In this document: piece after piece, positions 637 to 26,612 of the stretch
How positions within the stretch are numbered: the first letter of the stretch is position 1
Layout: the number at the start of each line of letters is the position of its first letter
Assembly: GCA_002686135.1 (NCBI GenBank)
Contig: NZAO01000054.1
Coordinates: forward strand, 13,521 to 40,749
Length of the DNA: 27,229 bases
Direction of reading: 5' to 3'
DNA from: Rhodospirillaceae bacterium
Lineage (GTDB): Bacteria; Pseudomonadota; Alphaproteobacteria; UBA11136
The notes under the pieces: generated by a model
Databases searched by the model: none
Seen by the model: the letters and a program-made list of their open reading frames with translations, nothing else
Told to the model about the DNA's origin: nothing
Made by a program: the position numbers and the translations under genes

Positions 637-698
637 GGTGCGGACGCTGTTGCCTCCGGGACATTCCGCCCGCATGGCACGACCACTACGTTGTGTCG

Positions 699-7023: not shown

Positions 7024-7049
7024 GTTCCGAAGAGCGGAACGATGTTTCG
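7024..7049. promoter_or_regulatory. IclR-type operator A (Rieske operon / citE divergent promoter)
   Basis: Three half-sites are seen: GTTCCG (7024-7029), a 5-nt gap, CGGAAC (7035-7040), a 3-nt gap, GTTTCG (7044-7049). The first two form a perfect 6-bp inverted repeat; the second and third a 5/6 inverted repeat. The identical 6-5-6-3-6 layout recurs at 11341, 24325 and 26512. It sits 36 bp before the RCCR-like start on the left and 71 bp before the citE-like start on the right, so it could control both operons. The likely ligand is the IclR-family protein encoded at 10494-11276. Confidence 0.75.
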
Positions 7050-7120
7050 TTTGCCAACGTTAGGGCCCACGAGGTTTTAGCGCAACGTTTGAGACAGGCC
7101 GAACAGACGGGAAACCGACC

Positions 7121-7930
7121 TTGCAAACTCCCAGCCTCCGAACCAGCCTCTACGTGCCTGGCGATCGACCTGAACGCTTCGACAAGGCGCTGCACAGCGG
7201 AGCCGATTCGGTCATCATCGACCTCGAGGATGCCGTCGCCGACGCGGCCAAGCCCCACGCTCGGGAGCATGCGGTCGATTGGCTACGTTCGAATCCGGGG
7301 ACGCCGGCGTGGGTGCGGGTGAACAACCGCTCCGATCTCCTGTCGGTCGACCTCGACGCAATTTCGCCGGTTTCGGGCCTGGGTGTCGTCATCCCCAAAG
7401 CCGACCTAGCCGCCTGCGCTCAGGCCTCGCTTCCGGTGGTCGCTCTCATCGAGACCTCCGTCGGTGTCGTGCAAGCGCGCGAGATCGCCGCGTTGCCCAA
7501 CGTGGTTCGGCTGGCCCTGGGCGAAGCCGATCTTGCCGCCGATCTCGGTATCGAGCCCTCGGTTGACCACCGGGAGTTTGTCGCTATCCGGTCCGAGATC
7601 GTGGTGGCATCGGCCGCGGCAATGATCGCCGCGCCGGCCGGGCCGGTGTTCACCGACCTCGAAGACGACGATGGATTGGCGGTATCGAGCGACCAGCTAC
7701 GACGCCAAGGCTTTGGTGGACGATCGATCCTTCACCCAAGGCAGGTCGGGGCGGTACACCGCGCCTTTGCCCCGCCCGCCGAACGCGTCGTGTGGGCACG
7801 ACGAATACTCGACGCGTTTCGGTCTGCCCAATCGGAGGGCCGTGCCGTGGTGATCGTCGATGGGGAATTCGTCGACGCTGCCGTAGCCCGACGAGCCGAA
7901 GCCGTCCTCGCCGTCGCGGGGAACCCATGA
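7121..7930 (+). CDS. HpcH/HpaI aldolase / citrate lyase beta-like (CitE) CoA-ester lyase
   Basis: A 269-residue TIM-barrel lyase of the CitE/malyl-CoA lyase family, which cleaves 3-hydroxy-acyl-CoA or malyl/citramalyl-CoA-type esters in a Mg-dependent aldol reaction. Family blocks are in order: RTSLYVPGDRPERFDKAL at the N-terminus, SVIIDLEDAV (Mg-region acid residues), AWVRVN, VIPKA, LIETSVGV, LALGEADLAADLG, GFGGRSILHPRQV and the terminal DGEFVDAAVARRAEAVL. The start is a TTG at 7121; no ATG or GTG fits the conserved N-terminus and the ribosome site is weak. Operator A lies upstream. It lacks the C-terminal extension of full malyl-CoA lyases. Given two CaiB CoA-transferases in the locus, it probably cleaves a CoA thioester made by one of them. 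Its stop overlaps a small open frame by 4 bp. Confidence 0.87.
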   Translation: MQTPSLRTSLYVPGDRPERFDKALHSGADSVIIDLEDAVADAAKPHAREHAVDWLRSNPGTPAWVRVNNRSDLLSVDLDAISPVSGLGVVIPKADLAACAQASLPVVALIETSVGVVQAREIAALPNVVRLALGEADLAADLGIEPSVDHREFVAIRSEIVVASAAAMIAAPAGPVFTDLEDDDGLAVSSDQLRRQGFGGRSILHPRQVGAVHRAFAPPAERVVWARRILDAFRSAQSEGRAVVIVDGEFVDAAVARRAEAVLAVAGNP

Positions 7931-8046
7931 CCCATCTCGTCTTCAGCCAAACCTGGCTGGAGGAAGGACCCGAACATCTCGCCGCCTACCTCGAGTTGGC
8001 GAACGGCTCGACTCGGTCCTCCAGGCCCAACCCGCCGTGGTCGTGA
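7927..8046 (+). CDS. Small open frame after citE, possibly a decayed gene
   Basis: A 39-residue frame starts in an ATGA overlap with the citE stop, the coupling used throughout this locus, and begins plausibly (MTHLVFSQTWLEEGPEHLAA). After YLELA the composition becomes Ser/Pro/Arg-rich, while a neighbouring frame continues sensibly as RLDSVLQAQPAVVVIH and then stops. This looks like a frameshifted remnant of a short protein; an antibiotic-biosynthesis-monooxygenase-type (ABM) fold would fit the pattern, but that is a guess. It may also be a genuine short peptide. Confidence 0.35.
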   Translation: MTHLVFSQTWLEEGPEHLAAYLELANGSTRSSRPNPPWS

Positions 8047-8086
8047 TCCACTGACCTGCGGGTTTGGCATTTCGCGCCATCCCCGA

Positions 8087-8950
8087 TCAGGAGTAGCGCT
8101 GCTCCTGCTCGTCGATCTCGTCGATGCCGACCAAGTGCAGAAAGTCGTCGTAGCTGGTCATCGTCGCGAGCCGGTCGGAACGAAATCCCAACTCGTGGAG
8201 ATCGGCCAGGCTGTCTTGCATCGCTCTTGTAGCGCTGAGCAACGTGGTGATCGGCGCCAAGACCACAGCGAACCCCATCCCACCGAGTTGGTCCAACGTG
8301 AACTCGGGTGGCCGGGCCTCTGAGGCGTTGAAGACCAGAGGTATGTCGTGGAAGGTCTCGGCGACAGTCTCGACCTCGGCTGGCGACTGCAGCGCTTCGA
8401 CGAACAACAAGTCGGCCCCAGCGTCGCGATAGCGGCGGGCTCGTTCGAGGGCGGCGCCGAGTCCCTCGTCGGCGCGAGCATCGGTGCGAGCGACGATCAC
8501 GATGTCGGTGCCCACGGCATCGCGGGTGTCGATAGCAGCGCGGAGCTTGCCCGCCATCTCGTCGACCGGAACAAGCGTCTTGCCGGCGAGGTGACCGCAC
8601 CGCTTGGGCATCTGTTGGTCTTCGAGATGCATTCCTGCCACGCCGCCTGCGATATAGGCCTCGACGGTGCGAACTACGTTGAGGGCGTTGCCATATCCGG
8701 TGTCGGCGTCGGCGAGCAGCGGTACCGACAACACCCGGGCGATTCGGCTTGCCGCATCCGCCATTTCGGTCATCGTCAGCAGGCCGACGTCGGGCCTTCC
8801 CAACAACGAACCCGCGACCGCGAACCCCGACATGTGCGCGGCATGGAATCCGGCCTGCTCGACCAGACGAGCCGAGACACCGTCGTAACAACCGGCGAGC
8901 ACCGTTGGGTCCGGCGCGGCGACAAGAGTTCGGAGGCGTTCGGCTGTCAC
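8087..8950 (-). CDS. Isocitrate lyase / PEP mutase family C-C lyase (methylisocitrate or dialkylmalate lyase-like)
   Basis: A 287-residue member of the PEP mutase/isocitrate lyase superfamily. The Mg ligands lie in DADTGYGN (Asp81, Asp83) and the flexible catalytic loop reads KRCGHLAGK with Cys118, the signature of true C-C lyases (2-methylisocitrate lyase, 2,3-dimethylmalate lyase) as opposed to oxaloacetate decarboxylases or mutases. Other family blocks: GCYDGVSARLVEQAGF, MHLEDQ, VIVARTDAR, ADLLFVEA. These enzymes split a 2-hydroxy-dicarboxylate into pyruvate or glyoxylate plus a second acid. The GTG start (8950) overlaps the nitrilase stop by 4 bp, placing it third in the iclR-nitrilase-lyase operon. 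With a PrpD-family gene nearby, a methylisocitrate-like or dialkylmalate-like substrate is inferred. Confidence 0.88.
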   Translation of the reverse strand: MTAERLRTLVAAPDPTVLAGCYDGVSARLVEQAGFHAAHMSGFAVAGSLLGRPDVGLLTMTEMADAASRIARVLSVPLLADADTGYGNALNVVRTVEAYIAGGVAGMHLEDQQMPKRCGHLAGKTLVPVDEMAGKLRAAIDTRDAVGTDIVIVARTDARADEGLGAALERARRYRDAGADLLFVEALQSPAEVETVAETFHDIPLVFNASEARPPEFTLDQLGGMGFAVVLAPITTLLSATRAMQDSLADLHELGFRSDRLATMTSYDDFLHLVGIDEIDEQEQRYS

Positions 8951-10497
8951 AGCAATGCGGCCGAAGCCTGCCAGGAGCGGCCACCGACCAGGTCGGTATC
9001 GCGCGAAACCTCACGGTGCAATGCCCGGGCCGGATAGAGCCGGGACTCCAGGATCGAGTCGTCGGGGCCGGCGGCGACCGCGTCAGGAGTATTGATCGTG
9101 CCATCGTAGGGGTGTAGCCGATCGGTCGACCAGAGAGAATCACGAGGCGGGTTGAGCACGATCGTGCCGCCGACACCCAGCGGGGTGCAGGCGACCAGGC
9201 ACAAGCGGTTCTCTGCCGCCCGTTCGCGAAGTGCCAGATCGGTGTGCCACGCGTGCGTCGGGTGGTAGAGCACGACGGCGATGTGGGCGCCCTGGATAGC
9301 GGCCAGACGGACGGCCTCCGGGTATAGGTGGTCGTCGCCGACAATGAGGGCGATGTCGCCCAACGGTGTTTCGCAGAGTGCGAGTTCGTCGCCGAACTCG
9401 GTCGCGTCGAACCGGTCGGAGTGATGAAGCTGTGCTTGTTCGTGGCGCAGCCCGCTGCGGGTCCACAGTTGTCCGACGTGTCGTTGGCCAACCACCGCGG
9501 AGGTGGCCACCCACACCCCGTCGGGGATCGACGCGGGTGGGGATGTGCCTTCGGGCAGCACTACGAGTTGCGCCCCGACAGCGTCCGAAGGTTGACTGCG
9601 CACACACCGAACTACGATGCTTTCGGGAACGTCGTGGCGGGGCGCGGCCGAGTGTGGCTTGGCGAGCGGACCGTAGATCTCGGGTCGGCGATGGCCGAAT
9701 CGATCGTCCAGCGGGCGAACCTCGGCCAGATCGATGTCGGCGACGATCACCTCTTCCTCGGTTCGGTTCGCCGATGCCAGGACCTCGCCATCGGGGGCGA
9801 CGATCTGGCTCTCGCCGGCGCCCTGCAGTACCTGGGACGGGACGCCGAGCGCTCGACTGAGCATCTCCACCTGGTCGACGGGAAGTAGCGGCCCGACCTT
9901 GTTGGCCGCTACCACGAACACGCCGTTCTCGACCGCTCGAACCGGGATGTGAAGAGCGGCCTCGTCGAGCGCGAACGAGTTGAGGCTGTTGAGCAGGAGG
10001 CGGGCGCCGCGAACCGCGAACGTCCGAGGTGTCTCGAAGGTGACGCCGTCCATGCAGGCATAGATGCCGAGAGGGCCGTAGCGGGTGTCGGCCAGTGGGC
10101 TGCCCGACGTCCCACCGGTCAGGTAGGTGCGCTCGTTGCCCATCAGCGTCTGCTTGTCGGCGGTGGCGATGATCTGGCCCACAGCATCAAGAAGGACACT
10201 GGTGATCGTCACACGATCGTCGCGGGGGACGGTGACCGCCAGTGCCACGCTGATGTCGAGCGCCCTTGCTCGCTCGGAGATCGTCGACATCCAGGCGCCG
10301 TCGAGCTCTACCGCCACGCTGCGACAATGGTCGAGGCTCTCGTATACCGACAGATGATTGGCGAATTCGGGCAGGACGACCAGTGCCGCACCGTTGGCCG
10401 CGGCCTCATCGATCAGTCGTAGACAACTGCCAAGGTTCTCGGCGAGGTCGGTGGTAGCCGCGAACTGGCCGGCTGCCACCCGAATCTGATCGATCAT
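8947..10497 (-). CDS. Tandem nitrilase-superfamily amidohydrolase with degenerate second domain
   Basis: A 516-residue protein, about twice the family's usual length. The first domain (residues 1-270) has the complete Glu-Lys-Cys triad: LPEF Glu44, ADKQTLMGNERTY Lys114 and GIYACMDGVTFE Cys147, so it should hydrolyse a C-N bond of an amide, nitrile or carbamoyl compound. The second (about 290-500) retains the fold pattern: LVVLPEG Glu315, then LGDIALIVGDDHLYPEAVRL, where the Cys of the usual ICYD is a Gly near 386 and no clear Lys is found, followed by AAENRLCLVACTP. It is therefore probably a catalytically dead pseudo-domain used for dimerisation or substrate gating. Start ATG 10497 overlaps the iclR stop; the stop overlaps the downstream lyase gene. 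The substrate is unknown; an amide intermediate of the same pathway is likely. Confidence 0.85.
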   Translation of the reverse strand: MIDQIRVAAGQFAATTDLAENLGSCLRLIDEAAANGAALVVLPEFANHLSVYESLDHCRSVAVELDGAWMSTISERARALDISVALAVTVPRDDRVTITSVLLDAVGQIIATADKQTLMGNERTYLTGGTSGSPLADTRYGPLGIYACMDGVTFETPRTFAVRGARLLLNSLNSFALDEAALHIPVRAVENGVFVVAANKVGPLLPVDQVEMLSRALGVPSQVLQGAGESQIVAPDGEVLASANRTEEEVIVADIDLAEVRPLDDRFGHRRPEIYGPLAKPHSAAPRHDVPESIVVRCVRSQPSDAVGAQLVVLPEGTSPPASIPDGVWVATSAVVGQRHVGQLWTRSGLRHEQAQLHHSDRFDATEFGDELALCETPLGDIALIVGDDHLYPEAVRLAAIQGAHIAVVLYHPTHAWHTDLALRERAAENRLCLVACTPLGVGGTIVLNPPRDSLWSTDRLHPYDGTINTPDAVAAGPDDSILESRLYPARALHREVSRDTDLVGGRSWQASAALL

Positions 10498-11276
10498 GAT
10501 TCATCGGATCGGGCGCCGAGGCGGGTCGAGAGCTCCCTCGTAGCTTCGGTGAGTGTTTCCGCCGAACCGGCGACCTCGTGTCGGAATCGTTCGATCGGGC
10601 CGCAAACGCTGATGACGGCAACCGGCCGATGCTGCTGATCGAGCACCGGCGCGGCGACAGAACAAGCGCCAACCTGACGTTCGCCCAACGACACGGCGAA
10701 ACCCTGCTCACGGATGCGCTTGAGTTCTGTGCGAAGCTCGGGCTCGGAGACGATCGTCGCATCGGTGAGCGCTTCGAGCGCCGACTCGGCGAGGTAGCCG
10801 TCGATCTCTTCGGGGCTGAGCCACGCCAGAAACGCCTTCGATGACGCGCCGGCATGGAGGGGGAACGCCGCGGCGAGTTGAACGGTCATCTTGACCTCTC
10901 GTGAGGGTGTGACCTGGTCGACGTACACCCGCTTGTTCCCGTTGCGAACCGAGAGCGTCGCTGTTTCGTTGGTCGTCGCGCTGAGGCGGTGCATCGCGTC
11001 GAGCGCCATCGAATGGATATCGAGGTTGTCGAGGTAGGCAGCCGAAAGTCGGAGCACGCCGGGACCAAGCGAGTAGCGCCGGGTCACCAGATCGGCGACC
11101 ACGAGATCGTGCTCACACAACGAGGTGAGGATGCGGTGGACCACCGCTTTGGAGATTTCGAGTTCTTTCGAGATCTCGGTAACCCCGATGGTGCCTTGTT
11201 TCGTCGTCAGGAGAAAGAGCACTTCGGCTGCTCGTTCGATGGTCGCTAGGCTTCTGCCACTCGTCGATGTCGACAC
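10494..11276 (-). CDS. IclR-family transcriptional regulator
   Basis: A 260-residue regulator with the two IclR domains. A winged helix-turn-helix spans roughly residues 8-75 (TIERAAEVLFLLTTKQGTIG, then VTEISKELEISKAVVHRILT and YSLGPGVLRL). The effector-binding domain follows (ETATLSVRNGNKRVYVDQV, PLHAGASSKAFLAWL, RIREQGFAVSLGERQVG and SVAAPVLDQQHRPVAVISVCGP), all characteristic of the family. It is first in an operon with the nitrilase and lyase genes (ATGA overlaps) and diverges from the CaiB-led operon. An operator of the type found at three other promoters lies in the 102-bp gap between them, so autoregulation and local control are likely. The effector is presumably a pathway substrate or intermediate, unknown here. 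Confidence 0.95.
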   Translation of the reverse strand: MSTSTSGRSLATIERAAEVLFLLTTKQGTIGVTEISKELEISKAVVHRILTSLCEHDLVVADLVTRRYSLGPGVLRLSAAYLDNLDIHSMALDAMHRLSATTNETATLSVRNGNKRVYVDQVTPSREVKMTVQLAAAFPLHAGASSKAFLAWLSPEEIDGYLAESALEALTDATIVSEPELRTELKRIREQGFAVSLGERQVGACSVAAPVLDQQHRPVAVISVCGPIERFRHEVAGSAETLTEATRELSTRLGARSDES

Positions 11277-11340
11277 CGATGATTCCTCTCAATCGGAAGG
11301 GGTTGCCCCACAGTCCACCGTACGAGACACTACAGGTTAT

Positions 11341-11366
11341 GTTCCACTGGGCGAAACAGTGTTCCG
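11341..11366. promoter_or_regulatory. IclR-type operator B (iclR / six-gene operon divergent promoter)
   Basis: Half-sites GTTCCA (11341-11346), CGAAAC (11352-11357) and GTTCCG (11361-11366) are separated by 5 and 3 nt. The 16 bases at 11351-11366 are the exact reverse complement of those at 26523-26538. The site lies 12 bp before the GTG of the CaiB-like gene and 64 bp before the iclR start, so occupancy would block rightward transcription or translation onset directly and could autoregulate iclR. Confidence 0.78.
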
Positions 11367-11378
11367 AGACGGTCTGAC

Positions 11379-12584
11379 GTGACGAAACCTCGAACCGGTC
11401 CACTCACCGACCTGCGGGTTCTCGATATCTCGACCGTGCTTGCTGGCCCGACCACTTGTCAAGTCCTGGCCGATTACGGCGCCGACGTGATCAAGATCGA
11501 ACACCCAACCCGTGCCGACGCATTGCGCGGGCATGGAGCCCAGATCGATGGCGAGGGGTTGTGGTGGAAGGTCGTCGCGCGAAACAAGCGCTGCATCGGC
11601 CTCTATCTCGGCTCGCCCGAAGGCGCCGAGATCTTTGAGAAGTTGGTGCCCACCGCCGACGTCGTCGTCGAGAATTTCCGGCCGGGCACGCTCGAACGTT
11701 GGGGGCTCGGATACGACCGCCTCGCCGAGATCAATCCGGGCATCGTGCTCTGTCGCATCACCGGGTTCGGACAGGATGGCCCGTATGCCGATCGTCCAGC
11801 GTTCGGGACGCTTATCGAGGCGATGAGCGGGTTCGCCCACATGACCGGCGAAGTCGACCGCCCACCTACCCTTCCCCCCTTTGGTCTGGCCGACTCAATC
11901 GCCGGCCTGGTTGGCGTTTCGGCGGTCATGATGGCTCTCCACCACCGCGACCGCACAGGGGTCGGTCAACAGATCGACCTCAGCATCCTCGAGCCGCTGA
12001 CCTCAGCGTTGGGTCCTCACATCATCACCTACGACCAGACCGGCCATGTGCAGTCGCGTTCGGGAAACCGATCGAGCAACAACGCGCCCCGCAACACATA
12101 CCTCACCTCCGATCAACACTGGGTTGTCGTGTCGTCGAGTGCAGAATCCATCGCTCGCCGTGCGATGGAGTTGGTCGGCCGTTCCGACCTGACCGACGAG
12201 CCATGGTTCGGCACAGGGGCGGGACGGGCCGAACACGCCGAGGAGATCGATGAGGCGATGGGCCAATGGATCGGCAGACTCGACCTCGAGACGGTCGTGG
12301 CCGAGTTCGCTGCCGCTGAAGTGGCACTGGCCCCAGTCTACGACGTTGCAGGCTACGTGGCCGATCCGCAGGTCGAGGCCCGGGGAGCCGTGGTCAGGGT
12401 TGACGATCAGAGCCTGGGTACCGTCGCCATGCAGAACGTGTTGTTCAAGATGTCGGAAACCCCGGGCGTCATTCGCCATACCGGTCGCTCGTTGGGGGCC
12501 GACACCGACGCCCTGCTTCATGGCGAGCTTGAGATTTCACACGAGCAACTAGACGAGCTACGCCAAGACGGAGTGATCGCATGA
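11379..12584 (+). CDS. CaiB/BaiF (class III) CoA-transferase, first of six-gene operon
   Basis: A 401-residue class III CoA-transferase, which moves CoA from a donor thioester to a carboxylic acid. The catalytic Asp is Asp172 in FGLADSIAGL. Other family blocks are ADYGADVIKIEHP, ARNKRCIGLYL, VVVENFRPGTLERWGLG, CRITGFGQDGPYADRPAF, GVGQQIDLSI and the late QVEARGAVV. Start is GTG 11379, 12 bp downstream of operator B. Its stop overlaps the next start (ATGA). The gene at 22347 is a clear paralogue sharing ENFRPGTLERWGLG. The operon content suggests it activates a dicarboxylate or a related acid for cleavage by the CitE-like or HMG-CoA-lyase-like enzymes. Donor and acceptor are unknown. Confidence 0.92.
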   Translation: MTKPRTGPLTDLRVLDISTVLAGPTTCQVLADYGADVIKIEHPTRADALRGHGAQIDGEGLWWKVVARNKRCIGLYLGSPEGAEIFEKLVPTADVVVENFRPGTLERWGLGYDRLAEINPGIVLCRITGFGQDGPYADRPAFGTLIEAMSGFAHMTGEVDRPPTLPPFGLADSIAGLVGVSAVMMALHHRDRTGVGQQIDLSILEPLTSALGPHIITYDQTGHVQSRSGNRSSNNAPRNTYLTSDQHWVVVSSSAESIARRAMELVGRSDLTDEPWFGTGAGRAEHAEEIDEAMGQWIGRLDLETVVAEFAAAEVALAPVYDVAGYVADPQVEARGAVVRVDDQSLGTVAMQNVLFKMSETPGVIRHTGRSLGADTDALLHGELEISHEQLDELRQDGVIA

Positions 12585-13390
12585 GCGACGTCGCCGCTCT
12601 ACTAGAACTACTCGGCCACGCCACCATCCACGACCTGGGCCGCAGCATGAGCAACGGCATGGCGCAGTCGCCGAACCACCCGTCGTTTCGGCACTGCCTC
12701 GATCGACTCCACGGCGACCGGGTTCGCGACGACGGCGGTTCGGCCGCCGCCGACCTGCTCACCACCGGTTGCCACGTCGGCACCCATGTCGACGCGCTGG
12801 CCCACGTCAGCCACGACGGCCTTCTATTCGGTGGTGTATCGGCCGCCGAGGCGCAGGCGACCGGAAGGTTCGAGGTGTTGGGTATCCACGAACTCCCGCC
12901 GTTCGTCGGCCGAGGTGTGCTTCTCGACATTGCGGCCATGTTGGGTGTCGAAGTCTGCGAACCCGGGTACGAGATCACCGCGTCCGACCTTGAGGCGACG
13001 GTCGTGCGACAAGCCACGCCGGTCAGGGCCGGCGACGCGGTCCTGATCCGAAGCGGGTGGGGGAAACACTTCGCCGACGATGCCGCGTATCGGGGCGTAG
13101 GTACCGGGGTGCCCGGAGTGGGTGAAGCGGGGGCGCAATGGTTGGCCGAACATGGGATAGCGCTGGCAGGCGCAGACACCGTCGCGTTCGAGTGCATCCC
13201 ACCCGGTGCTGGACACGCGCCCCTGCCCGCGCATCGTGTGCTCCTGGTCGAGGCGGGAATCAACATCATCGAAGCGATGAACCTCGATGACGCTGCCGCT
13301 GCCGGCGCGCACGAAGTCGTCTTTGTCTTGGCTCATCTCAACATTCATGGAGCCACCGGCGCACCTGCCCGACCTCTCGCCATCGCATGA
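12581..13390 (+). CDS. Metal-dependent cyclase-family amidohydrolase (kynurenine formamidase / isatin hydrolase type)
   Basis: A 269-residue protein of the cyclase family (Pfam Cyclase). The metal site is seen as HVGTHVDALAH: His65, His69, Asp71 and His75, matching the HxGTHxDxxxH signature. Family features also include IHDLGRSMSNGM at the start, DAVLIRSGWGKHF in the middle, HGIALAGADTVAFECIPPG and a terminal EVVFVLAHLNIHGATGAPARP. Members hydrolyse C-N bonds, including the ring amide of isatin and N-formylkynurenine. A cyclic imide or lactam opening step is therefore a fair inference, given that HyuA/HyuB and isochorismatase-type amidases are encoded in the same or adjacent operons. Coupled by ATGA overlaps on both sides. 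Confidence 0.88.
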   Translation: MSDVAALLELLGHATIHDLGRSMSNGMAQSPNHPSFRHCLDRLHGDRVRDDGGSAAADLLTTGCHVGTHVDALAHVSHDGLLFGGVSAAEAQATGRFEVLGIHELPPFVGRGVLLDIAAMLGVEVCEPGYEITASDLEATVVRQATPVRAGDAVLIRSGWGKHFADDAAYRGVGTGVPGVGEAGAQWLAEHGIALAGADTVAFECIPPGAGHAPLPAHRVLLVEAGINIIEAMNLDDAAAAGAHEVVFVLAHLNIHGATGAPARPLAIA

Positions 13391-19140: not shown

Positions 19141-21427
19141 AAGACGCGTTCGTCGGAGTTGGCGCTGACGCGTTGGCGATAGCGGACCACACTTTTTGTG
19201 GAGTCATCGGCATGTCGAGGTGCTTCACGCCAAGGTGTCGAATCGCATCGATGACGGCGTTCTGTACCGCGGCGGTAGAGCCGATGGTTCCCGACTCGCC
19301 GATGCCTTTCGCGCCGAGTGGGTTGTTCGGCGAAGGGGTTTCGTAATGCGTGGTCTCGAATGACGGCACTTGAGGCGCCGAAAGGATCGAGTAGTCGGTG
19401 AAGTTCGACGTCAGGAGATTGCCATCGACGTCGTAGACGATCTCTTCGCACAATGCTTGAGCGACCCCAGCACCGAGACCGCCATGCACCTGCCCTTCGG
19501 CGAGCATTGGATTGATGATGGTGCCAGCGTCGTCGGCCGCGATCAGGCGCAGGAGTTCGACGGATCCGGTCTCTGCATCCACCTCGACCACGGCGATGTT
19601 GGTGCCCGACGGATAGGTGGGCGACTCCTGGGCGAACTCTCCCACCGTGGCGAGCGGCACCTCGGTCGCGGCCGCTATGGCCGGCCAGTCAATCGAGATG
19701 GTGGGTGAGCCGGCAACGGCGAATGCGCCGGTTCCCTGGTCGAACACGACATCGTCCACGGCTGCTTCCAACAGCTGCGCGGCGATCGACTTGGCTGCTT
19801 CGACCATCTGCTTGGAAGCATCGACCATCGTCGGTCCAAGGACCTGGGTCGTGCGAGACGCCGCGGTGATGTTGCTGTGGGGAATTGTGCTGGTGTCACC
19901 TGACCGGAGGGTGATCTGTTCGACGCCCACACCCAGGCCATCGGCGGCGATCATCGCCACAGTGGTTTCTGTGCCCTGGCCCATAGCCGTTGCACCGAAG
20001 TCGACCCGGAAAGATCCGTCGTCGAGCAGCGTGACTGCGCCGTGTTCGGTCTGGGGGCCCGGAGCTGCGGCCGTGACTTCGACAAACGACGCCACACCGA
20101 TGCCCAACAGTTTCTTGCTTCCCGACTCTCGACGGGTTGCCTGGTCGGAGCGGAGCTGTCCGTAGCCGGCGATGTCGCAAGCGAGCCGAAGCCCTTCGGC
20201 GAATCGCCCGGAGTCATAGACCGAACCCGTCTTGGTCGCGAACGGGAAACTGTCTGGCTCGATGAAGTTGCGACGACGCACCTCGACCGGGTCGATGCCC
20301 GTCTCGGCGGCAAACAGATCGACGGCCCGTTCGAGGGTGGCAATCGCTTCGGGGCGGCCTGCTCCACGAAACGCATCGATGGTGGACGTGTTGGTCAGGA
20401 CTGTCTCGAACGTATAGGCGACCTGGCCGATGTCGTAGCAACCCTGGGCCACCATCCCGGTGAGGAATGGAAGAAACCCCACCCCGGTGGGGGTGTAGCC
20501 GGCGTCGGCGAGATTGTGGAGGTGATAGTGGGTGATGCGTCCATCGGCGCGACCGCCCATCGTGACCGTGTGGTACTGGGCGCGGCCGTGGCACATCGCC
20601 TGCAGGCTTTCGGTGCGCGACTCGACCCACAGGACCGGGCGTTGCACGATGCGGGACAGACACCCCAGGGCGCACTCCTCCAGGCCCGGTGCGGCCTTGG
20701 CTCCAAACCCGCCCCCGAGATCGGGGACGATCACCCGCACGGATTGGTCAGGCAGCCCGGCCACGGCTGCCAGCTGCGAACGGGTCGCGTGAAGCCCCTG
20801 GGTCGACGACCAACAGGTGAGCGTGTCATCGGCGTGCCAATGCGCGGCGGCAACCCTGGGTTCGATCGGCGCAGCGTTCATCCGAGAGTTCGAGATTTCC
20901 ATCGTGATGACGACATCGCAGTCCGAGAAGTCGGGAATCGGCGCCTCGACTAGTGGCATTGCGGGCAGCACGTTCGACCCAAGTTCGTCGTACAACGTCG
21001 TCGCGTGGGCGCCGGCGCGGCGCGGATCGATCACGGCATCGAGAGGCTCGTAATCGATGACGACCGCCTCCGCGGCATCGATCGCCTGGCTGAGCGTGTC
21101 TGCCACGATGGCAGCGATGGGTTGTCCGACGAACCGCACCCGGTCGGTCGCGAGCAGGTGGCGTTGCAGGAAGTCGGGCCGCGGGATGGGTGGAAAGCCC
21201 GGTGCCGGATTCGCCCCGAGCGATCCTGCGTCGACAGCGGCGAGAACGCCAGGCATGCGCCTGGCCTGGTCGAGTTCGACGGCGAGAAGCTTGGCATGCG
21301 CCATGCTCGAACGTACGAACACCACCGCTGCGGCATCCGGTGGCGCAACGTTGGCCACATATCGTCCCTGGCCGAGAAGAAACCGTACGTCTTCGATGCG
21401 TTTTACGCGGTTGCCGAGAATGCTCAC
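19133..21427 (-). CDS. Molybdenum hydroxylase large subunit (CoxL / xanthine dehydrogenase family), orphan
   Basis: A 764-residue molybdopterin-binding subunit of the xanthine dehydrogenase/CO dehydrogenase family. It starts at GTG 21427 in a GTGA overlap with the HMG-CoA-lyase-like gene (SILGNRVKRIEDVRFLLGQG). Family blocks: VRFVGQPIAAIVADT, IVPDLGGGFGAK, ERAVDLFAAETGIDPVEVRR, active-site loop AFRGAGRPEA, and the C-terminal GAKGIGESGTIG with the conserved catalytic Glu. The active-site loop lacks the CSFR-type Cys of true aerobic CO dehydrogenase, so it should hydroxylate an aromatic N-heterocycle, purine-like compound or aldehyde. No FAD (medium) or [2Fe-2S] (small) subunit gene is in this window, which is unusual; they may be elsewhere, or another electron acceptor is used. 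Confidence 0.92.
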   Translation of the reverse strand: MSILGNRVKRIEDVRFLLGQGRYVANVAPPDAAAVVFVRSSMAHAKLLAVELDQARRMPGVLAAVDAGSLGANPAPGFPPIPRPDFLQRHLLATDRVRFVGQPIAAIVADTLSQAIDAAEAVVIDYEPLDAVIDPRRAGAHATTLYDELGSNVLPAMPLVEAPIPDFSDCDVVITMEISNSRMNAAPIEPRVAAAHWHADDTLTCWSSTQGLHATRSQLAAVAGLPDQSVRVIVPDLGGGFGAKAAPGLEECALGCLSRIVQRPVLWVESRTESLQAMCHGRAQYHTVTMGGRADGRITHYHLHNLADAGYTPTGVGFLPFLTGMVAQGCYDIGQVAYTFETVLTNTSTIDAFRGAGRPEAIATLERAVDLFAAETGIDPVEVRRRNFIEPDSFPFATKTGSVYDSGRFAEGLRLACDIAGYGQLRSDQATRRESGSKKLLGIGVASFVEVTAAAPGPQTEHGAVTLLDDGSFRVDFGATAMGQGTETTVAMIAADGLGVGVEQITLRSGDTSTIPHSNITAASRTTQVLGPTMVDASKQMVEAAKSIAAQLLEAAVDDVVFDQGTGAFAVAGSPTISIDWPAIAAATEVPLATVGEFAQESPTYPSGTNIAVVEVDAETGSVELLRLIAADDAGTIINPMLAEGQVHGGLGAGVAQALCEEIVYDVDGNLLTSNFTDYSILSAPQVPSFETTHYETPSPNNPLGAKGIGESGTIGSTAAVQNAVIDAIRHLGVKHLDMPMTPQKVWSAIANASAPTPTNASSS

Positions 21428-22323
21428 GGTGTGGGAAACCCGCCCGCCTTGGCGACCAGACCGGGGGTTGGGTGTTGCAGCTCGTATTCCAGCCACGCCG
21501 TGGACTGGATGAGGAGGTCGAGGTCCAGGCCGGTGTCGAAACCCATCTCGTGCAACAGGTAGACGACGTCCTCGGTGGCTACGTTGCCGGTTGCGCGTGG
21601 AGCGAACGGGCATCCCCCGACACCACCGAGGCTCGAATCGAAGATGCGCACCCCGGCGTCGATCGCTGCCACGATGTTGGCGAGGGCCGTATTGCGCGTG
21701 TTGTGGAAGTGCCCGCGCAGCGGGATTACGTCGACAGCCTGCGAAACACCCTCGACGAGCGAGGCGACCCTGCTGGGAACTGCCACCCCTATGGTGTCGG
21801 CAAGCACGATCTCATCGGGTCCGGTCGCGGCGAGTTGGCGGGCGATGTCGACGACGAGAGCGGGATCGACACGACCCTCGAAGGGGCAACCAAAGGACGC
21901 AGCGATCGTTACCGAGGCCTTCTTGCCGGCCGCTCGGGCGGCGTCGCCTATGGCGGCCCACCGCTCGATCGATTCGGCGATCGACGCGTTCTGGTTGCGC
22001 TGCGAGAAGGTTTCGGAGGCGACGACGACACCTGTGACCTCGTCGACCTCGGCGGCGATCGCCCGCTCGACGCCGCGCCTGTTGAAGGCGAGGGCGCTAT
22101 AGCTAACCCCATCGATTCGGGGAACCCCGGCCATGATGGCATCGCCGTCGGCCATCTTCGGCACCGCCTTCGAGCTCACGAAACTGGCGGCCTCGATGCG
22201 GGTGTGACCTCCGGCGATCAACCGTTCAATGAGCGCCACCTTCTGGTCGGTGGTGAGGTCGGCCGGGTCGGCCTGGAGACCGTCGCGCGGCGATACCTCG
22301 ACGATCTGGATATGTCCTACCAT
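21424..22323 (-). CDS. HMG-CoA lyase-like / DRE-TIM metallolyase
   Basis: A 299-residue hydroxymethylglutaryl-CoA lyase-family enzyme (DRE-TIM barrel). Seen: EVSPRDGLQ (catalytic Arg13, metal Asp14), IEAASFVSSKAVPKMAD, FGCPFEGRVDP, LADTIGVAVPSRV, metal-binding RGHFHNTRN (His near 205 and 207) and the family signature GGVGGCPFAPRATGNVATED with its Cys. It splits 3-hydroxy-3-methylglutaryl-CoA or an analogue into acetyl-CoA/propionyl-CoA plus a keto acid. ATG 22323 is taken; GTG 22329 is in frame. No ribosome site is visible, and a TAGGCT hexamer lies at leaderless -10 spacing (complement of 22331-22336). First of a two-gene operon with the CoxL-like gene, divergent from a CaiB gene only 23 bp away. 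Confidence 0.92.
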   Translation of the reverse strand: MVGHIQIVEVSPRDGLQADPADLTTDQKVALIERLIAGGHTRIEAASFVSSKAVPKMADGDAIMAGVPRIDGVSYSALAFNRRGVERAIAAEVDEVTGVVVASETFSQRNQNASIAESIERWAAIGDAARAAGKKASVTIAASFGCPFEGRVDPALVVDIARQLAATGPDEIVLADTIGVAVPSRVASLVEGVSQAVDVIPLRGHFHNTRNTALANIVAAIDAGVRIFDSSLGGVGGCPFAPRATGNVATEDVVYLLHEMGFDTGLDLDLLIQSTAWLEYELQHPTPGLVAKAGGFPTP

Positions 22324-22346
22324 CGGCACCGAGCCTAGTGTTGGGT
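22324..22346. promoter_or_regulatory. Compact divergent promoter, possibly leaderless on both sides
   Basis: Only 23 bp separate the HMG-CoA-lyase-like ATG (left) and the CaiB-like ATG (right). Two -10-like hexamers overlap or abut: TAGGCT on the minus strand (22331-22336) and TAGTGT on the plus strand (22336-22341). Each is 6-8 bp from the first base of its start codon, which would place transcription starts at or beside the ATGs. No Shine-Dalgarno is visible on either side. The operator seen at four other promoters is absent. Proposed from spacing alone. Confidence 0.4.
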
Positions 22347-23579
22347 ATGCCAGGAGCCCTGAGTGACATCCGCGTAATCGAGATGGGAACCCTGCTCGCG
22401 GGGCCCTTCTGCGGTCAACAGCTCGCCGACCACGGTGCCGAAGTGATCAAGATCGAGCCGCCCGGCAAGGGCGACCCAATGCGCGATTGGGGTCAGGAGA
22501 TCGCCGAGGGACGTTCGCTCTGGTGGCCGGTCATCGCCCGAGGCAAGAAGTCGGTCACCGTCAACCTGCGCGAGGAAGCGGGCCAGGAACTGATCCGTCA
22601 ACTCATCAGAGAGGCCGACGTCCTTGTCGAGAACTTCCGGCCGGGAACTCTCGAGCGATGGGGGCTAGGTCCCGAAACGCTGCACGCCATCAACCCGCGG
22701 CTCATCATCACCCGGGTGAGCGGCTGGGGTCAGTTCGGACCCAACTCGGGCCAACCCGGGTTCGGTGCGATCGGCGAAGCGGTCGGCGGTATTCGGTACA
22801 CGACCGGCGAGCCCGATCGTCCTCCGAGCCGAACCAGCATCAGCATCGGCGACACCCTCACCGCGTTGTTCGCGACGATCGGCACGCTCAGCGCGCTGCA
22901 TGCCCGTGAAGGCACCGGTCGTGGGCAGGTGATCGACGCGGCCCTGTACGAGTCGGTTCTGGCCGTCATGGAGTCGTTGCTCACCGAGTATCACGTTGCC
23001 GGGTTCATCCGCGAACGAACCGGCTCGTTGATTCCCAACATTGCGCCTGCGAACATCTATCCGACGGCGGGCGACGGATTGCACCTGATCTCGGGAAATC
23101 AGGACACCGTGTGGCGTCGACTCGCCGAGGCGATGGGCCGTCCCGAACTCGCCACCGACGTCAGGTACGCAACGCATCTCGGCCGCGGCGAAAACCAGGC
23201 CGAACTCGACGGCCTCATCGCCGAGTGGACCATTGGCTACACGAGCGACGAGCTGCATGCACTCCTGAAAGAACACGGTGTTCCCAACAGCCCGATGTAT
23301 CGAGCTCCCGAAATGTTGGCGGACGAGCACTTCGCAGCTCGCGACTCGATCAAGTGGATCGACAGCCACGACTTCGGGGAGATCCCAATGCAGAACGTCG
23401 TGCCGAAGCTGTCCGACACGCCCGGCGAGGTTCGCTGGTCGGGGCCGACCCTCGGACAACACAACCTCGAGGTATTGCGCGACATCCTTCACCTCGACGA
23501 CGATGCGATCGACCAACTGGCCGCCGAGGGCATCGTCGAGGGGCCTGTCAAGGCGGCCGAGGGAGCTGAGCAGCCATGA
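22347..23579 (+). CDS. CaiB/BaiF (class III) CoA-transferase, second copy
   Basis: A class III CoA-transferase of 410 residues from ATG 22347; in-frame GTG 22338 and TTG 22341 precede it without ribosome sites. The catalytic Asp is Asp169 in ISIGDTLTAL. Family blocks: IEMGTLLAGPFCGQQLADHG, AEVIKIEPPGKGDPMRDWG, VLVENFRPGTLERWGLG, TRVSGWGQFGPNSGQPGFG, RGQVIDAALYESV and EMLADEHFAARDSI. It is paralogous to the gene at 11379 but diverged throughout, so the two probably serve different acids. Its stop overlaps the following isochorismatase-family amidase start (ATGA), and it diverges from an HMG-CoA-lyase-like gene. Likely forms the CoA thioester cleaved by that lyase. Confidence 0.93.
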   Translation: MPGALSDIRVIEMGTLLAGPFCGQQLADHGAEVIKIEPPGKGDPMRDWGQEIAEGRSLWWPVIARGKKSVTVNLREEAGQELIRQLIREADVLVENFRPGTLERWGLGPETLHAINPRLIITRVSGWGQFGPNSGQPGFGAIGEAVGGIRYTTGEPDRPPSRTSISIGDTLTALFATIGTLSALHAREGTGRGQVIDAALYESVLAVMESLLTEYHVAGFIRERTGSLIPNIAPANIYPTAGDGLHLISGNQDTVWRRLAEAMGRPELATDVRYATHLGRGENQAELDGLIAEWTIGYTSDELHALLKEHGVPNSPMYRAPEMLADEHFAARDSIKWIDSHDFGEIPMQNVVPKLSDTPGEVRWSGPTLGQHNLEVLRDILHLDDDAIDQLAAEGIVEGPVKAAEGAEQP

Positions 23580-24232
23580 CTCCTCCGTCTCGAGATTCCA
23601 CGAGCGAGTCGGACCTCGACCTCGACTACAAGACGGCCGGCTTCTCGAAGCGACTCGGCTTCGGTCGACGTCCCGCGCTGGTAGTCATCGACTTTTGCCA
23701 TGCGTACCTCGATGCCGACTCGCCCCTGTATGCCGGCGTGGAGGACGCTCGCGTATCGTCAGAGCGACTTCTGCGTGCGTCGCGGGCGGCCGGAATTCCG
23801 ATCATCCACACGCGGGTCGAGTTTCAACCGGACGGTGCCAACGGTGGTGTCTTCTTTCGCAAGGTCGACGCGCTGAGGTGTTTCATCGAGGGGAACCCGC
23901 TCGGCGAACCAGGCCCTGGGCTCGAGCCACAGCCCGGCGAGGTCGTCGTCACCAAGCAATATGCTTCGGCGTTCTTCGGCACATCGCTTGCGTCGACACT
24001 GACGGCACTCGGCGTAGACACCTTGATCCATGCCGGCGTCTCCACCAGCGGTTGTGTGCGGGCCACCGCCCTCGACGCTTGCCAGCATGGCTTTGTTCCG
24101 ATTGTGGTTCGCGAGGCGGTCGGCGACCGCGATCAGGGCGTCCACGACGCCAACCTGTTCGACCTCGACGCGAAGTATGCCGACGTGGTCTCCGAAGACG
24201 AGACCCTCGCGTACCTCCACGGGTTGGACTGA
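23576..24232 (+). CDS. Isochorismatase-family amidohydrolase (maleamate / N-carbamoylsarcosine amidase type)
   Basis: A 218-residue cysteine hydrolase with the complete triad: Asp39 (GRRPALVVIDFCHAYLD), Lys127 (VVVTKQYASAFFGTSLA) and Cys160 (GVSTSGCVRATALDACQHGF). The N-terminal GFGRRPALVVID and the KxYASAFFGT segment fit the N-carbamoylsarcosine amidase / maleamate amidohydrolase (NicF) branch better than isochorismatase proper. Such enzymes release ammonia from a carbamoyl or maleamate-type amide. It is coupled to the upstream CoA-transferase. With a maleate isomerase-like gene 131 bp downstream, a maleamate-like substrate is attractive; with HyuA/HyuB in the locus, an N-carbamoyl amino acid is the competing option. 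Unlike the paralogue at 18523, nothing essential is missing. Confidence 0.9.
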   Translation: MTPPSRDSTSESDLDLDYKTAGFSKRLGFGRRPALVVIDFCHAYLDADSPLYAGVEDARVSSERLLRASRAAGIPIIHTRVEFQPDGANGGVFFRKVDALRCFIEGNPLGEPGPGLEPQPGEVVVTKQYASAFFGTSLASTLTALGVDTLIHAGVSTSGCVRATALDACQHGFVPIVVREAVGDRDQGVHDANLFDLDAKYADVVSEDETLAYLHGLD

Positions 24233-24324
24233 TCAGCGCGGCCCCCTTTCAGTCCTCAGCCCAATGTTTCTACGGAAGCCTGCCCAGGGGCCGCATGCAG
24301 GCGCCATAGGCACCTCGGTGTAGT

Positions 24325-24350
24325 GTCCGGCTGAGTGGAACAGCGTTCCT
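24325..24350. promoter_or_regulatory. IclR-type operator C (upstream of isomerase/monooxygenase pair)
   Basis: A perfect dyad GGAAC-3 nt-GTTCC at 24337-24349 is preceded, 5 nt further left, by a weaker half-site GTCCGG (24325-24330, 4/6 to GTTCCG). The layout is the same 6-5-6-3-6 as at 7024, 11341 and 26512. It lies 13 bp before the GTG start at 24364; a -10-like TAGTGT (24321-24326) overlaps its left edge. Occupancy would block transcription at or just after initiation. Confidence 0.72.
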
Positions 24351-24363
24351 TAGGAGGTTTCGT

Positions 24364-25110
24364 GTGCCTGACGTCGTCGGATACCGAGCAAAGATCGGTG
24401 TGGTCGTGCCATCGACCAACACGGTCGTCGAATACGACCTCAACCAGGTGCGGCCACCCGGCGTCACCTTCCACAGCGGACGTTTTTTCGTCGAAGCCCC
24501 CGACCTGAGCACCGATGAAAAATTCCTGCACTTCCTCGGGTTGATTCGCCAGACCATTCCCATCGCCCTCCGAGACCTCATGACCTGCGAACCCGACTAC
24601 ATCTTGATGGGGATGTCGGCCGAGACGTTCTGGGGAGGGAAGGAGGGAAACGCGGCATTCGAGGCCAGCGTGCGCGAGCAGACTGGCGGTCTCGGGATCA
24701 CTTCGGGCGCAGACGCGTGCAACGCGGCGCTCGAACGCCTCGGCGTCTCCAACATCGCGTGCATAACCCCATACCAACCAGTGGGCGACGCTCAGGTTGA
24801 CGGCTATTTCTCCGAGTGCGGCTACGACGTGAAGCGAGTTCACGGTCTGAAGTGTGCGACCGCCACCTCGATCGCCGACGTGCAGCCCGACACCCTCCTG
24901 GACGAACTGAAGCGCCTCGATGGTCCCGACATCGATGCCATCGTCCAGTGTGGAACAAACCTGTCGATGGTGGCGGTGGCCGACGAGGCCGAGCAACTGC
25001 TCGGCAAACCCGTACTGGCCATCAACGCGATCTGTCTGTGGCACGCTCTGCGGGCCCTCCACATCGAAGACCAATTCTCGGGCCAAGGCATGATGCTCCG
25101 CGAGTTCTGA
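24364..25110 (+). CDS. Maleate isomerase / arylmalonate decarboxylase-like (Asp/Glu racemase superfamily)
   Basis: A 248-residue Asp/Glu racemase-superfamily protein. The start is GTG 24364 with a strong AGGAGG ribosome site at 24352-24357. N-terminal IGVVVPSTNTVVEYDL matches the maleate cis-trans isomerase / AMDase group. Maleate isomerases use two cysteines; here the first position reads LMGMSAETFWGG with Ser85 in place of Cys, while the second, VQCGTNLSM Cys196, is kept. One-cysteine members include arylmalonate decarboxylase. So the reaction may be decarboxylation or an unusual isomerisation of a substituted maleate or malonate, and NicE-type maleate isomerase activity is less certain. 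Operator C lies directly upstream; the FAD monooxygenase follows after 1 bp. Confidence 0.85.
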   Translation: MPDVVGYRAKIGVVVPSTNTVVEYDLNQVRPPGVTFHSGRFFVEAPDLSTDEKFLHFLGLIRQTIPIALRDLMTCEPDYILMGMSAETFWGGKEGNAAFEASVREQTGGLGITSGADACNAALERLGVSNIACITPYQPVGDAQVDGYFSECGYDVKRVHGLKCATATSIADVQPDTLLDELKRLDGPDIDAIVQCGTNLSMVAVADEAEQLLGKPVLAINAICLWHALRALHIEDQFSGQGMMLREF

Positions 25111-25111
25111 A

Positions 25112-26347
25112 ATGCCCTCAGGCGTCTCGTCCATCACCGCTCCACATGTCGTCGTCGCCGGTGCCGGTCCGGTCGGTTGCGTGGCCGCCGCGGTGCTTGC
25201 AGGAGCCGATGTTCGGGTCACCTTGATCGAGGCATCCCCGTCACCCCCTCGCGAACTGCGGGCCTCCACGTTTCACCCCGCGACCCTCGAGATGCTTCGA
25301 CCGTACGGCGTAGTCGACGAGATGATCGCCCGCGGCCTCGTCGCCCGACACTTCGCCTATCGAGACCGTCACGTCGGAGTCGTGGCCCGATTCGACCTCG
25401 ACGAACTGCGTGACATCACGAACTACCCGTTTCGCCTTCAGTGCGAACAGTTCAAGCTGTGCGAGATCCTTCTCGAGAAGTTCGTGTCGAACCCGCTGAT
25501 CGATGTGCGCTTCAGTTCGGCCATCGAGGCTGTCGAACAGCGGTCCGAGGGTGCTGCAGCCGTACTGACCAGCGGCGAGACAATCGAGGCCGACGCTGTC
25601 ATCGGGGCCGACGGTGCCTCGAGCGCTGTGCGCAAGTCGCTCGGTTGCACGTTCGATGGCATGACCTACGCCGACCGCTACCTCGTGGTCTCGACGCCCT
25701 ATGAGTTGTCCGACCATATGCCCGACCTTTCCTACGTCAACTATGTTTCCGATCCCGACGAGTGGATGGTGCTCCTGCGCACCGTCGATCTTTGGCGAGC
25801 CCTCTTCCCGGTGTCCGACGACGAGACCGACGGTCAGGCGCTCAGCGACGAAAGTGCCGAGCGGCGATTGCAGGGTGTGGTAGCCAAGCCGACTGCATAC
25901 GAGGTGGCCCACCGCGCGATCTATCGCGTGCACCAGCGGGTAGCCGACCGATTCCGTGTGGGGAGGGCGGTGCTCGTTGGCGATGCCGCACACGTCAACA
26001 ACCCGCTGGGCGGCATGGGAATGAACGGGGGAGTGCACGATGCCGTATTGCTGGCGGGTGGGCTGGCGGGACTCCTGCACGGCACGGTGACCGACCAGCA
26101 GTTCGATGGGTACGCGGCGCTTCGTCGCCAGCTGGCCCTCGACTTCGTCCAGAGACACACTCACGAGAACGCGGTCACGCTCGCCACACCCGACGCTTCG
26201 ATTCGGGCAGAGGCACTCGAGCAGATGATCGAGCGGGCTGCGAACGTCGACACCGCGTACGACTACCTGCTGCAAGCCTCGATGATCAAAGCGGTGTGGG
26301 CGATGGAAACCGAGCTCCGCGCGATCGATGCCTACCCGTTCGGCTAA
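25112..26347 (+). CDS. FAD-dependent aromatic monooxygenase (group A flavoprotein hydroxylase)
   Basis: A 411-residue single-component flavin hydroxylase of the PHBH/UbiH/6-hydroxynicotinate 3-monooxygenase type. The three fingerprints are present: GAGPVG at residues 17-22 followed by LIEAS (ADP-ribose binding), ADGASSAVRKSLG near 165 (DG motif, FAD and NAD(P)H) and VGDAAHVNNPLGGMGMNGGVHD near 289 (GD motif, FAD ribityl). It hydroxylates an activated aromatic or N-heterocyclic ring using O2 and NAD(P)H. ATG 25112 follows the isomerase-like stop by one base, so the two form an operon under operator C. Pairing of such a monooxygenase with a maleate isomerase-like and a maleamate amidase-like gene resembles the nicC-nicE-nicF set of aerobic nicotinate breakdown, although nicX and nicD counterparts are not seen. 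Confidence 0.93.
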   Translation: MPSGVSSITAPHVVVAGAGPVGCVAAAVLAGADVRVTLIEASPSPPRELRASTFHPATLEMLRPYGVVDEMIARGLVARHFAYRDRHVGVVARFDLDELRDITNYPFRLQCEQFKLCEILLEKFVSNPLIDVRFSSAIEAVEQRSEGAAAVLTSGETIEADAVIGADGASSAVRKSLGCTFDGMTYADRYLVVSTPYELSDHMPDLSYVNYVSDPDEWMVLLRTVDLWRALFPVSDDETDGQALSDESAERRLQGVVAKPTAYEVAHRAIYRVHQRVADRFRVGRAVLVGDAAHVNNPLGGMGMNGGVHDAVLLAGGLAGLLHGTVTDQQFDGYAALRRQLALDFVQRHTHENAVTLATPDASIRAEALEQMIERAANVDTAYDYLLQASMIKAVWAMETELRAIDAYPFG

Positions 26348-26356
26348 GGGGCCGGG

Positions 26357-26530
26357 TCAGCCCTGGTAGTCGAGAACCGGGAGTTCGTCGGTTTCGTAGT
26401 TCGTGAGGTCGTCGGCGCTCTCCTCAGGGGTTTCGCAGGCGCAAGCAGTCGCCGGCAGCGCGAGACAACACCAGGCGCAGAACGGGCGAGACCACGCAGC
26501 GACGATTCGTTGTTTCGTTGACCGGAACAC
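26357..26530 (-). CDS. Possible small Cys-rich protein (57 aa)
   Basis: The reverse strand from GTG 26530 encodes 57 residues: a basic start (VFRSTKQRIVAAW), a Cys-rich middle (FCAWCCLALPATACACE) and an acidic tail (DDLTNYETDELPVLDYQG, TGA at 26357-26359). The last 25 codons have strongly GC-rich third positions, as real genes here do, which is why I list it. Against it: the start codon lies inside operator D, there is no ribosome site, and the reverse frame is open much further right only because it shadows the gene there. It could be a remnant of a longer gene's C-terminus. Function unknown. Confidence 0.3.
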   Translation of the reverse strand: MFRSTKQRIVAAWSRPFCAWCCLALPATACACETPEESADDLTNYETDELPVLDYQG

Positions 26531-26537
26531 TGTTTCG
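26512..26537. promoter_or_regulatory. IclR-type operator D (upstream of neocarzinostatin-like gene)
   Basis: Half-sites GTTTCG (26512-26517), CGGAAC (26523-26528) and GTTTCG (26532-26537) are spaced by 5 and 3 nt, exactly as in operators A and B. Sixteen bases (26523-26538) are the reverse complement of those in operator B. It fills the space between the promoter's -35 and -10 elements, the position expected for repression. Confidence 0.78.
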
Positions 26538-26544
26538 CTATACT
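26518..26544 (+). promoter_or_regulatory. Sigma-70-type promoter of the neocarzinostatin-like gene
   Basis: A -10 box TATACT (26539-26544) matches the consensus at five of six positions. TTGACC (26518-26523) is a good -35 at 15-bp spacing, or GTTGAC at 16 bp. This is slightly short, which often marks regulated promoters. Transcription would start near 26551, leaving a leader of about 60 nt before ATG 26613. Confidence 0.6.
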
Positions 26545-26612
26545 CTCGACACTCATCGGGTATGAACTCGACCGCCGCGTCAGGCGGCCACCATTTGGAG
26601 GAACTCTCAGAC

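Follow-up and report, generated by a model that had tools for sequence, protein, structure and literature searches.

According to our analysis, the 27,229-nucleotide stretch of DNA considered here (the window: positions 13,521 to 40,749 of contig NZAO01000054.1, assembly GCA_002686135.1) contains four copies of a three-box operator-like site around the gene of an IclR-family regulator. Very probably these form an essentially one-locus regulon of that regulator, which has been kept in part of the Acidimicrobiia, and the sign of the regulation is likely to be repression. The regulator and the predicted operators are as follows:

10494–11276, − strand: IclR-family regulator (HTH_IclR and IclR_C, Pfam)
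7024–7049, + strand: operator 1, GTTCCG-n5-CGGAAC-n3-GTTTCG, between the RCCR-like gene (−) and the citE-like gene (+)
11341–11366, + strand: operator 2, GTTCCA-n5-CGAAAC-n3-GTTCCG, between iclR (−) and a CoA-transferase gene (+)
24325–24350, + strand: operator 3, GTCCGG-n5-TGGAAC-n3-GTTCCT, first box degenerate; abuts the Shine-Dalgarno-like AGGAGG of the Amdase-like gene
26512–26537, + strand: operator 4, GTTTCG-n5-CGGAAC-n3-GTTTCG, over the −35 and spacer of the predicted promoter of a secreted-protein gene

The sequences of the four sites read exactly as a preliminary description of this DNA had given them, and all four are intergenic. The same description had stated that GGAAC-n3-GTT occurs in no gene; in a scan of both strands the matches (three on the + strand, two on the −) were confined to the four sites. 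The sites were scored over 15 positions (boxes GTTYC, GRAAC and GTTYC at core spacings of 7 and 3), with 200 first-order Markov resamplings of the window and the reversed pattern as chance controls. The window scored 15/15 at three places, 14 at none and 13 at two; of these two, one is operator 3 (24325) and the other is a match in a shifted register atop operator 4 (26512). The resamplings averaged 0.00, 0.01 and 0.36 places per window at scores of 15, 14 and 13, respectively, and no place in the window reached 12 with the reversed pattern. Taken together, the four sites greatly exceed what chance would give. Operator 3 is considered a site because of its position and its counterpart in a relative, genome G059 (GTTCGC-n5-CGGAAC-n3-GTTCCT, 14/15), rather than because of its score.

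The contig (C54 of an assembly of 96 contigs and 1.57 Mb, here G000) is probably, though not certainly, a misbinned Acidimicrobiia contig. Positions 3293–27076 of the window are collinear, at ~86%, with JABIQM010000163.1 of Acidimicrobiaceae bacterium SI072_bin141 (L037; contig C17 of G059), and the samples of the two classes, 385 genomes for G000 and 395 for G059, share no genome. No match to iclR at E 1e-30 was revealed in two same-genus genomes and one same-family genome of G000. The GC content of C54 (0.645–0.685, versus 0.58–0.62 in ten other stretches of the assembly) is weak evidence, with 3-kb loci of other G000 contigs at 0.49–0.64 and the G059 contig at only 0.61–0.62. Because G000 and the locus seem to come from different classes, this assembly was set aside as the main background, and the genomes of the relatives were used instead.

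Among the 395 genomes of the class of G059, an iclR match at E 1e-40 was found in 23 (G059 included), and all 23 regions were read. The sites are kept upstream of orthologous genes in these relatives, with the exceptions given below. In G059, whose IclR is 86% identical, all four sites occupy the same places and score 15, 15, 14 and 15 of 15. A fifth site in this genome (15/15; C17:6969, L076 6969–6994) lies beyond the point where the contig of the window ends. It is followed at ~40 bp by a Dabb-domain gene and flanked on the opposite side by a DUF3891 gene set, and the longest form of the first, family-less open reading frame (ORF) of the set overruns the site. In G773, G712, G760, G770 and G687 (IclR 63–68% identical), 15/15 sites stand at the RCCR/CitE and IclR/CoA-transferase divergent promoters, and a third site is found beyond the DUF3598-fold gene; the genes behind it include DUF3891 in G773, and the five sequences behind it have their start region in common. 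In the intergenic alignment the boxes and short −10-like elements are the main islands of identity, the rest having diverged. Operator 4 has a counterpart in G059, and a near-identical site of the same type (GTTYCGTTGACCGGAAC-n3-GTTTC) precedes, by ~65–135 bp, the homologue of the secreted-protein gene in G773, G712, G760 and G770. The homologues are 53–57% identical, and their place in the cluster differs from that in the window; G687 carries a similar sequence on a different contig. An extra site was also observed 2–4 kb from the operator-4-type site in four genomes (G773 C1:55271, G712 C1:127484, G760 C1:1674000 and G770 C20:128994), exact in G770 and with one mismatch in the other three; serpin and FG-GAP genes are nearby in G773.

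The spacing of the boxes is specific. In 24 regions (546 kb), a core spacing of 7 was found for 43 pairs (no other spacing of 3–12 had more than 3) and a core spacing of 3 for 37 pairs (no other spacing of 0–10 had more than 4); box triples numbered 24 at (7,3) versus 3 and 1 at two other spacings. These regions hold 46 places scoring at least 14/15, with the window sites and register-shifted matches counted, versus 0 for the reversed pattern. Genome-wide scans revealed few matches outside the cluster. In the assembly of the window the pattern GTTYCVNNNNNBGRAACNNNGTTYCV has three exact matches, all in the window, and one match elsewhere with one mismatch; among the 385 genomes of the class of G000, 18 had any exact match to a slightly stricter pattern, and only G000 had more than two. 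In six relatives together, 32 of 40 matches with at most one mismatch fell in the cluster (G712 6/6, G773 6/6, G770 5/6, G059 6/8, G760 6/10 and G461 3/4, register-shifted matches on one site being counted), and the reversed pattern gave 3 matches; in two relatives with genomes of 3.5–3.6 Mb every such match was confined to this locus. Chance similarity or a dispersed repeat could account for a degenerate site such as operator 3, which alone would be unremarkable, but this explanation is practically negligible for the set as a whole, given the spacing specificity, the conservation at orthologous promoters and the persistence of the sites across IclR divergence down to ~50% identity.

The position of the sites relative to candidate promoter elements bears on the sign of the regulation. 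The predicted elements are:

7057–7062, − strand: candidate −10 (TANNNT) of the RCCR-Rieske operon; the operator starts 7 bp downstream
11327–11332, − strand: candidate −10 (TAGTGT) of the iclR operon, the presumed −35 region of which is covered by operator 2
26518–26523, + strand: candidate −35 (TTGACC) inside operator 4; also present in G059, G773, G712, G760 and G770
26541–26546, + strand: candidate −10 (TACTCT), 17 bp after TTGACC

TANNNT is the actinobacterial −10 element. On the RCCR side it starts (− strand) 8–10 nt past the operator in 7/7 genomes, and on the iclR side it is found (− strand) 7–8 nt to the left of the operator, again in 7/7; behind TTGACC-17 at the secreted-protein promoter it is present in 5/5 genomes, with G770, reading TAGTCT, as a sixth. 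As judged by these conserved −10-like elements, the operator covers promoter or start regions, and the regulator is thus most likely a repressor that an effector releases. We propose that the four sites would serve as operators of the 10494–11276 protein, whose dimers would bind the boxes GTTYC/GRAAC (5-mer cores 7 bp and 3 bp apart) and prevent transcription. At iclR, which would thus be autorepressed, and at the secreted-protein gene, the dimers would cover the −35; at the RCCR-Rieske operon, they would occupy the start region immediately past the −10. IclR would be freed by an effector, probably a substrate or intermediate of the pathway, and the operons would then be turned on together.

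The same operators and regulator might instead work by activation, or in a dual manner, with the effector needed to recruit the polymerase, as in PcaU and PobR. This is unlikely. In its favour, three-box sites have been reported for PcaU, PobR and HmgR (PMC8222616), and the PcaR/PcaU/PobR subfamily (TIGR02431) was the second-best NCBIfam match of our IclR. Membership in that subfamily was rejected (137.3 bits versus a cut-off of 284.75), as was the best NCBIfam match, the BhcR equivalog NF045644 (168.9 bits versus 350). The operators lie on the presumed −35 and start regions, not at positions upstream of them as expected for an activator, and these elements are themselves predicted from the sequence. 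The operators of PcaU, PobR and HmgR resemble the present ones in having a palindrome with an extra external direct half-site; they differ in their GTNCG-type boxes, versus GTTYC/GRAAC here, and in the pathway, and the likeness concerns the arrangement of the boxes (PMC8222616).

The three-box architecture itself is already known. Suvorova and Gelfand (2021; PMC8222616) predicted such sites for 32 of the 181 IclR orthologous groups studied (199 transcription factors) and read them as two possible alternative dimerization modes. As in their main text, the boxes here alternate in direction, lie near gene starts and would serve a small catabolic regulon, as most of theirs do; one pair fits their group 1, GTT-11-AAC (GTTYCRYW3RYGRAAC), and the other their group 2 (TGRAACAN1-2TGTTYCA). 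The right-hand pair GRAAC-n3-GTTYC shares the group 2 geometry of the KdgR/IclR/AllR dyads, with the difference that here a third box is added 5 bp to the left. Binding as a dimer of dimers on the overlapping dyads, as suggested in the preliminary description, may be envisaged from this geometry. The gene content differs from the gene sets described in that text, in which the string "Acidimicrobi" was not found. The regulon and its gene content, or RCCR-Rieske clusters in Acidimicrobiia, were likewise absent from the literature searched (titles and abstracts, with full texts only under open licence).

That the regulator of these sites is the IclR protein of the window, and not another one encoded elsewhere with iclR as a bystander, is suggested by several lines of evidence. 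IclR is the only regulator family among the 26 ORFs of the window scanned with Pfam, in agreement with the preliminary description (three of these ORFs are overlapping alternatives without a family). Its membership in the IclR family is clear, with PF09339 at 40.6 bits and PF01614 at 145.7 bits, both above the cut-off, and IclR proteins in the PDB match it. The sequence and geometry of the boxes are those of IclR sites, and operator 2 lies, as had been noted, at the promoter of iclR itself. For the 24 orthologues (the window included), sites were scored within 300 bp upstream of iclR, and the control consisted of 20 other IclR-family genes (18 of 19 loci from one search and two from another). 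Fifteen of the 24 reach 14 or 15 and a further one reaches 13, that is, 16 at 13/15 or more, versus 0/20 of the control genes (best score 12) and 0/24 for the reversed pattern. The presumed recognition helix SKAVVHR is present in 20 of the 24 orthologues, 16 of which have a site of at least 13 within this distance; the four exceptions (G659, G724, G750 and G707) have none, the numbers being small and kinship ignored. The sites also co-occur with the iclR orthologue: among the 395 genomes, 33 of the 48 exact matches (versus 5 for the reversed pattern) belonged to the 23 orthologue-bearing genomes, 12 of which had at least one, and the other 15 were spread over 13 of the 372 genomes lacking an orthologue (Fisher p 1.9e-10, kinship ignored). 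These 13 genomes, in which an exact match occurs without an orthologue at E 1e-40, agree with a bystander role of iclR, and direct binding by IclR is predicted from sequence; nevertheless, we consider another regulator very improbable.

A few observations weigh against the proposed regulon of IclR. Operator 3, with its degenerate first box, is not significant by its score alone (13/15, 0.36 expected per window), and both it and the Amdase/monooxygenase part were seen only in the window and in G059. Eleven of the 23 orthologue-bearing genomes lack any exact match, and the three exact matches of G477 lie on contigs other than that of its iclR; one exact match of G687 and the only one of G684 are also off the iclR contig. 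Eight of the 24 orthologues score below 13/15 within 300 bp of iclR: G656, G585 and G750 have a site one gene farther upstream, in front of a citE-iclR pair, in G724 it is at the CoA-transferase gene, in G659 iclR is at a contig edge, and in G392, G684 and G707 no site was found near iclR. An exact two-box GRAAC-n3-GTTYC dyad also stands upstream of L055, one of the 20 control genes of the IclR family; therefore, this half of the motif is not confined to the present iclR group. Finally, the HMGL-XDH and second CoA-transferase-isochorismatase genes (19133–24232) are without a site.

It follows that the preliminary description, according to which the sites link all parts of the locus, was overstated in this respect. 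The sites do stand at the Rieske/RCCR/citE, CoA-transferase/HyuAB, isomerase/monooxygenase and secreted-protein promoters; the peptidase genes (693–3049), like the genes just mentioned, have none. The divergent HMGL-like and second CoA-transferase genes are separated by ~8 bp (22329–22338) with no operator between them, and both recur in the cluster of relatives.

Two further pairs of sites were observed. G756, in which no iclR match at E 1e-40 was found, has two exact three-box sites 8.6 kb apart (C7:200694 and 209324), perhaps part of a related regulon that has diverged. In G018, one-mismatch places (C6:469879 and 476698) lie 1.8 kb and 4.2 kb on either side of an IclR gene with 31% identity.

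The remaining genes of interest in the window are the following:

3289–4236, − strand: DUF3598/BFA1-fold double beta-barrel protein (AlphaFold2, pLDDT 92.2)
4237–4962, − strand: second RCCR/bilin-reductase-fold protein (AlphaFold2, pLDDT 93.4; Foldseek)
4959–6143, − strand: Rieske oxygenase of VanA_C type (nearest solved relatives SxtDIOX and NdmA)
6175–6987, − strand: RCC-reductase-like protein (PF06405, E 1.6e-15; Arabidopsis RCCR 3agb, 4.8e-10)
7121–7930, + strand: CitE/HpcH-like lyase (nearest RipC, itaconate C-C lyase, below cut-off)
8087–8950, − strand: PEP mutase/ICL superfamily protein (nearest methylisocitrate lyase PrpB, below cut-off)
8947–10497, − strand: carbon-nitrogen hydrolase (PF00795), overlapping the end of iclR
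11379–19140, + strand: class III CoA-transferase, cyclase, MmgE/PrpD, HyuB, HyuA and isochorismatase (overlapping ORFs, Pfam)
24364–26347, + strand: Amdase-like racemase/isomerase and FAD monooxygenase (Pfam)
26613–27229, + strand: secreted neocarzinostatin-like protein, cut by the contig end

From left to right, the M24 and M20 peptidase genes are followed by the DUF3598-fold, second RCCR-fold, Rieske and RCCR-like genes (−), operator 1, the citE/RipC-like gene (+), the PrpB-like, C-N hydrolase and iclR genes (−) and operator 2. Then come the six genes of 11379–19140 (+), those for a molybdopterin dehydrogenase and HMGL (−), a second class III CoA-transferase and isochorismatase (+), operator 3, the Amdase-like and monooxygenase genes (+), operator 4 and the secreted-protein gene (+). 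The hydrolase gene is probably in one operon with iclR, and the genes of 11379–19140 and of 24364–26347 probably form one operon each. Alignment with relatives suggests that the RCCR-like gene starts at 6987 rather than at the longest-ORF start, 7005; its product scores 57.4 bits with PF06405, versus a gathering score of 24.9. In an NCBIfam scan of ten proteins, the best matches of the lyases and CoA-transferases include itaconate, mesaconate and methylisocitrate enzymes, all matches being below the cut-off except that to the HMG-CoA-lyase subfamily.

For the 4237–4962 protein no Pfam match was found, and its fold was used because a PDB sequence search gave nothing credible. The best Foldseek match was Arabidopsis RCCR 2zxk (E 4.5e-11, TM 0.75), and ranks 1–43 were all RCCR or bilin reductases. 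For the 3289–4236 protein, Foldseek matched 5yvf (1.5e-8) and 2o62 (3.4e-8), with TM 0.55–0.60.

Bilin reductases are already known in heterotrophic bacteria (PMC10151467), and the gene content allows a tentative, rather doubtful, suggestion on the role of the regulon, namely the effector-induced uptake and breakdown of tetrapyrrole (chlorophyll or haem) catabolites by heterotrophic Acidimicrobiia. The Rieske oxygenase, the two RCCR-fold reductases and the DUF3598-fold proteins would act on a linear tetrapyrrole, and HyuAB, the amidohydrolase, PrpD, CoA-transferase, CitE, PrpB and HMGL-like enzymes might assimilate the maleimide-like or alkyl-maleate pieces; the neighbourhoods in G059 and G773 add a branched-chain-type ABC transporter. 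As predicted from the genes, the enzyme set fits the conversion of a linear tetrapyrrole to alkyl-maleate-like acids, and it would equally fit other N-containing ring compounds. Pheophorbide a oxygenase of plants is a Rieske enzyme, and the operon here, like the plant system with its RCC/bilin reductases, combines a Rieske gene with an RCCR homologue and a second RCCR-fold gene; the present oxygenase differs in being of the VanA_C type, close to SxtDIOX and NdmA, and the likeness comes from genes and folds. The catabolic operons would be joined in one co-regulated unit with a defined operator, and the inducer could thus be searched for by a reporter or binding assay. If it were a tetrapyrrole catabolite, this would suggest that bacteria have a regulated pathway for a pigment of great abundance, the fate of which in heterotrophic bacteria is, to our knowledge, poorly known.

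Relatives of the two fold-assigned proteins, both encoded on the − strand, were also counted. The 4237–4962 protein, whose gene adjoins the RCCR homologue and Rieske oxygenase region, has 1026 relatives among the 8000 candidates scored, and the 3289–4236 protein has 357, two of the 120 listed being named as Anaerolineales.

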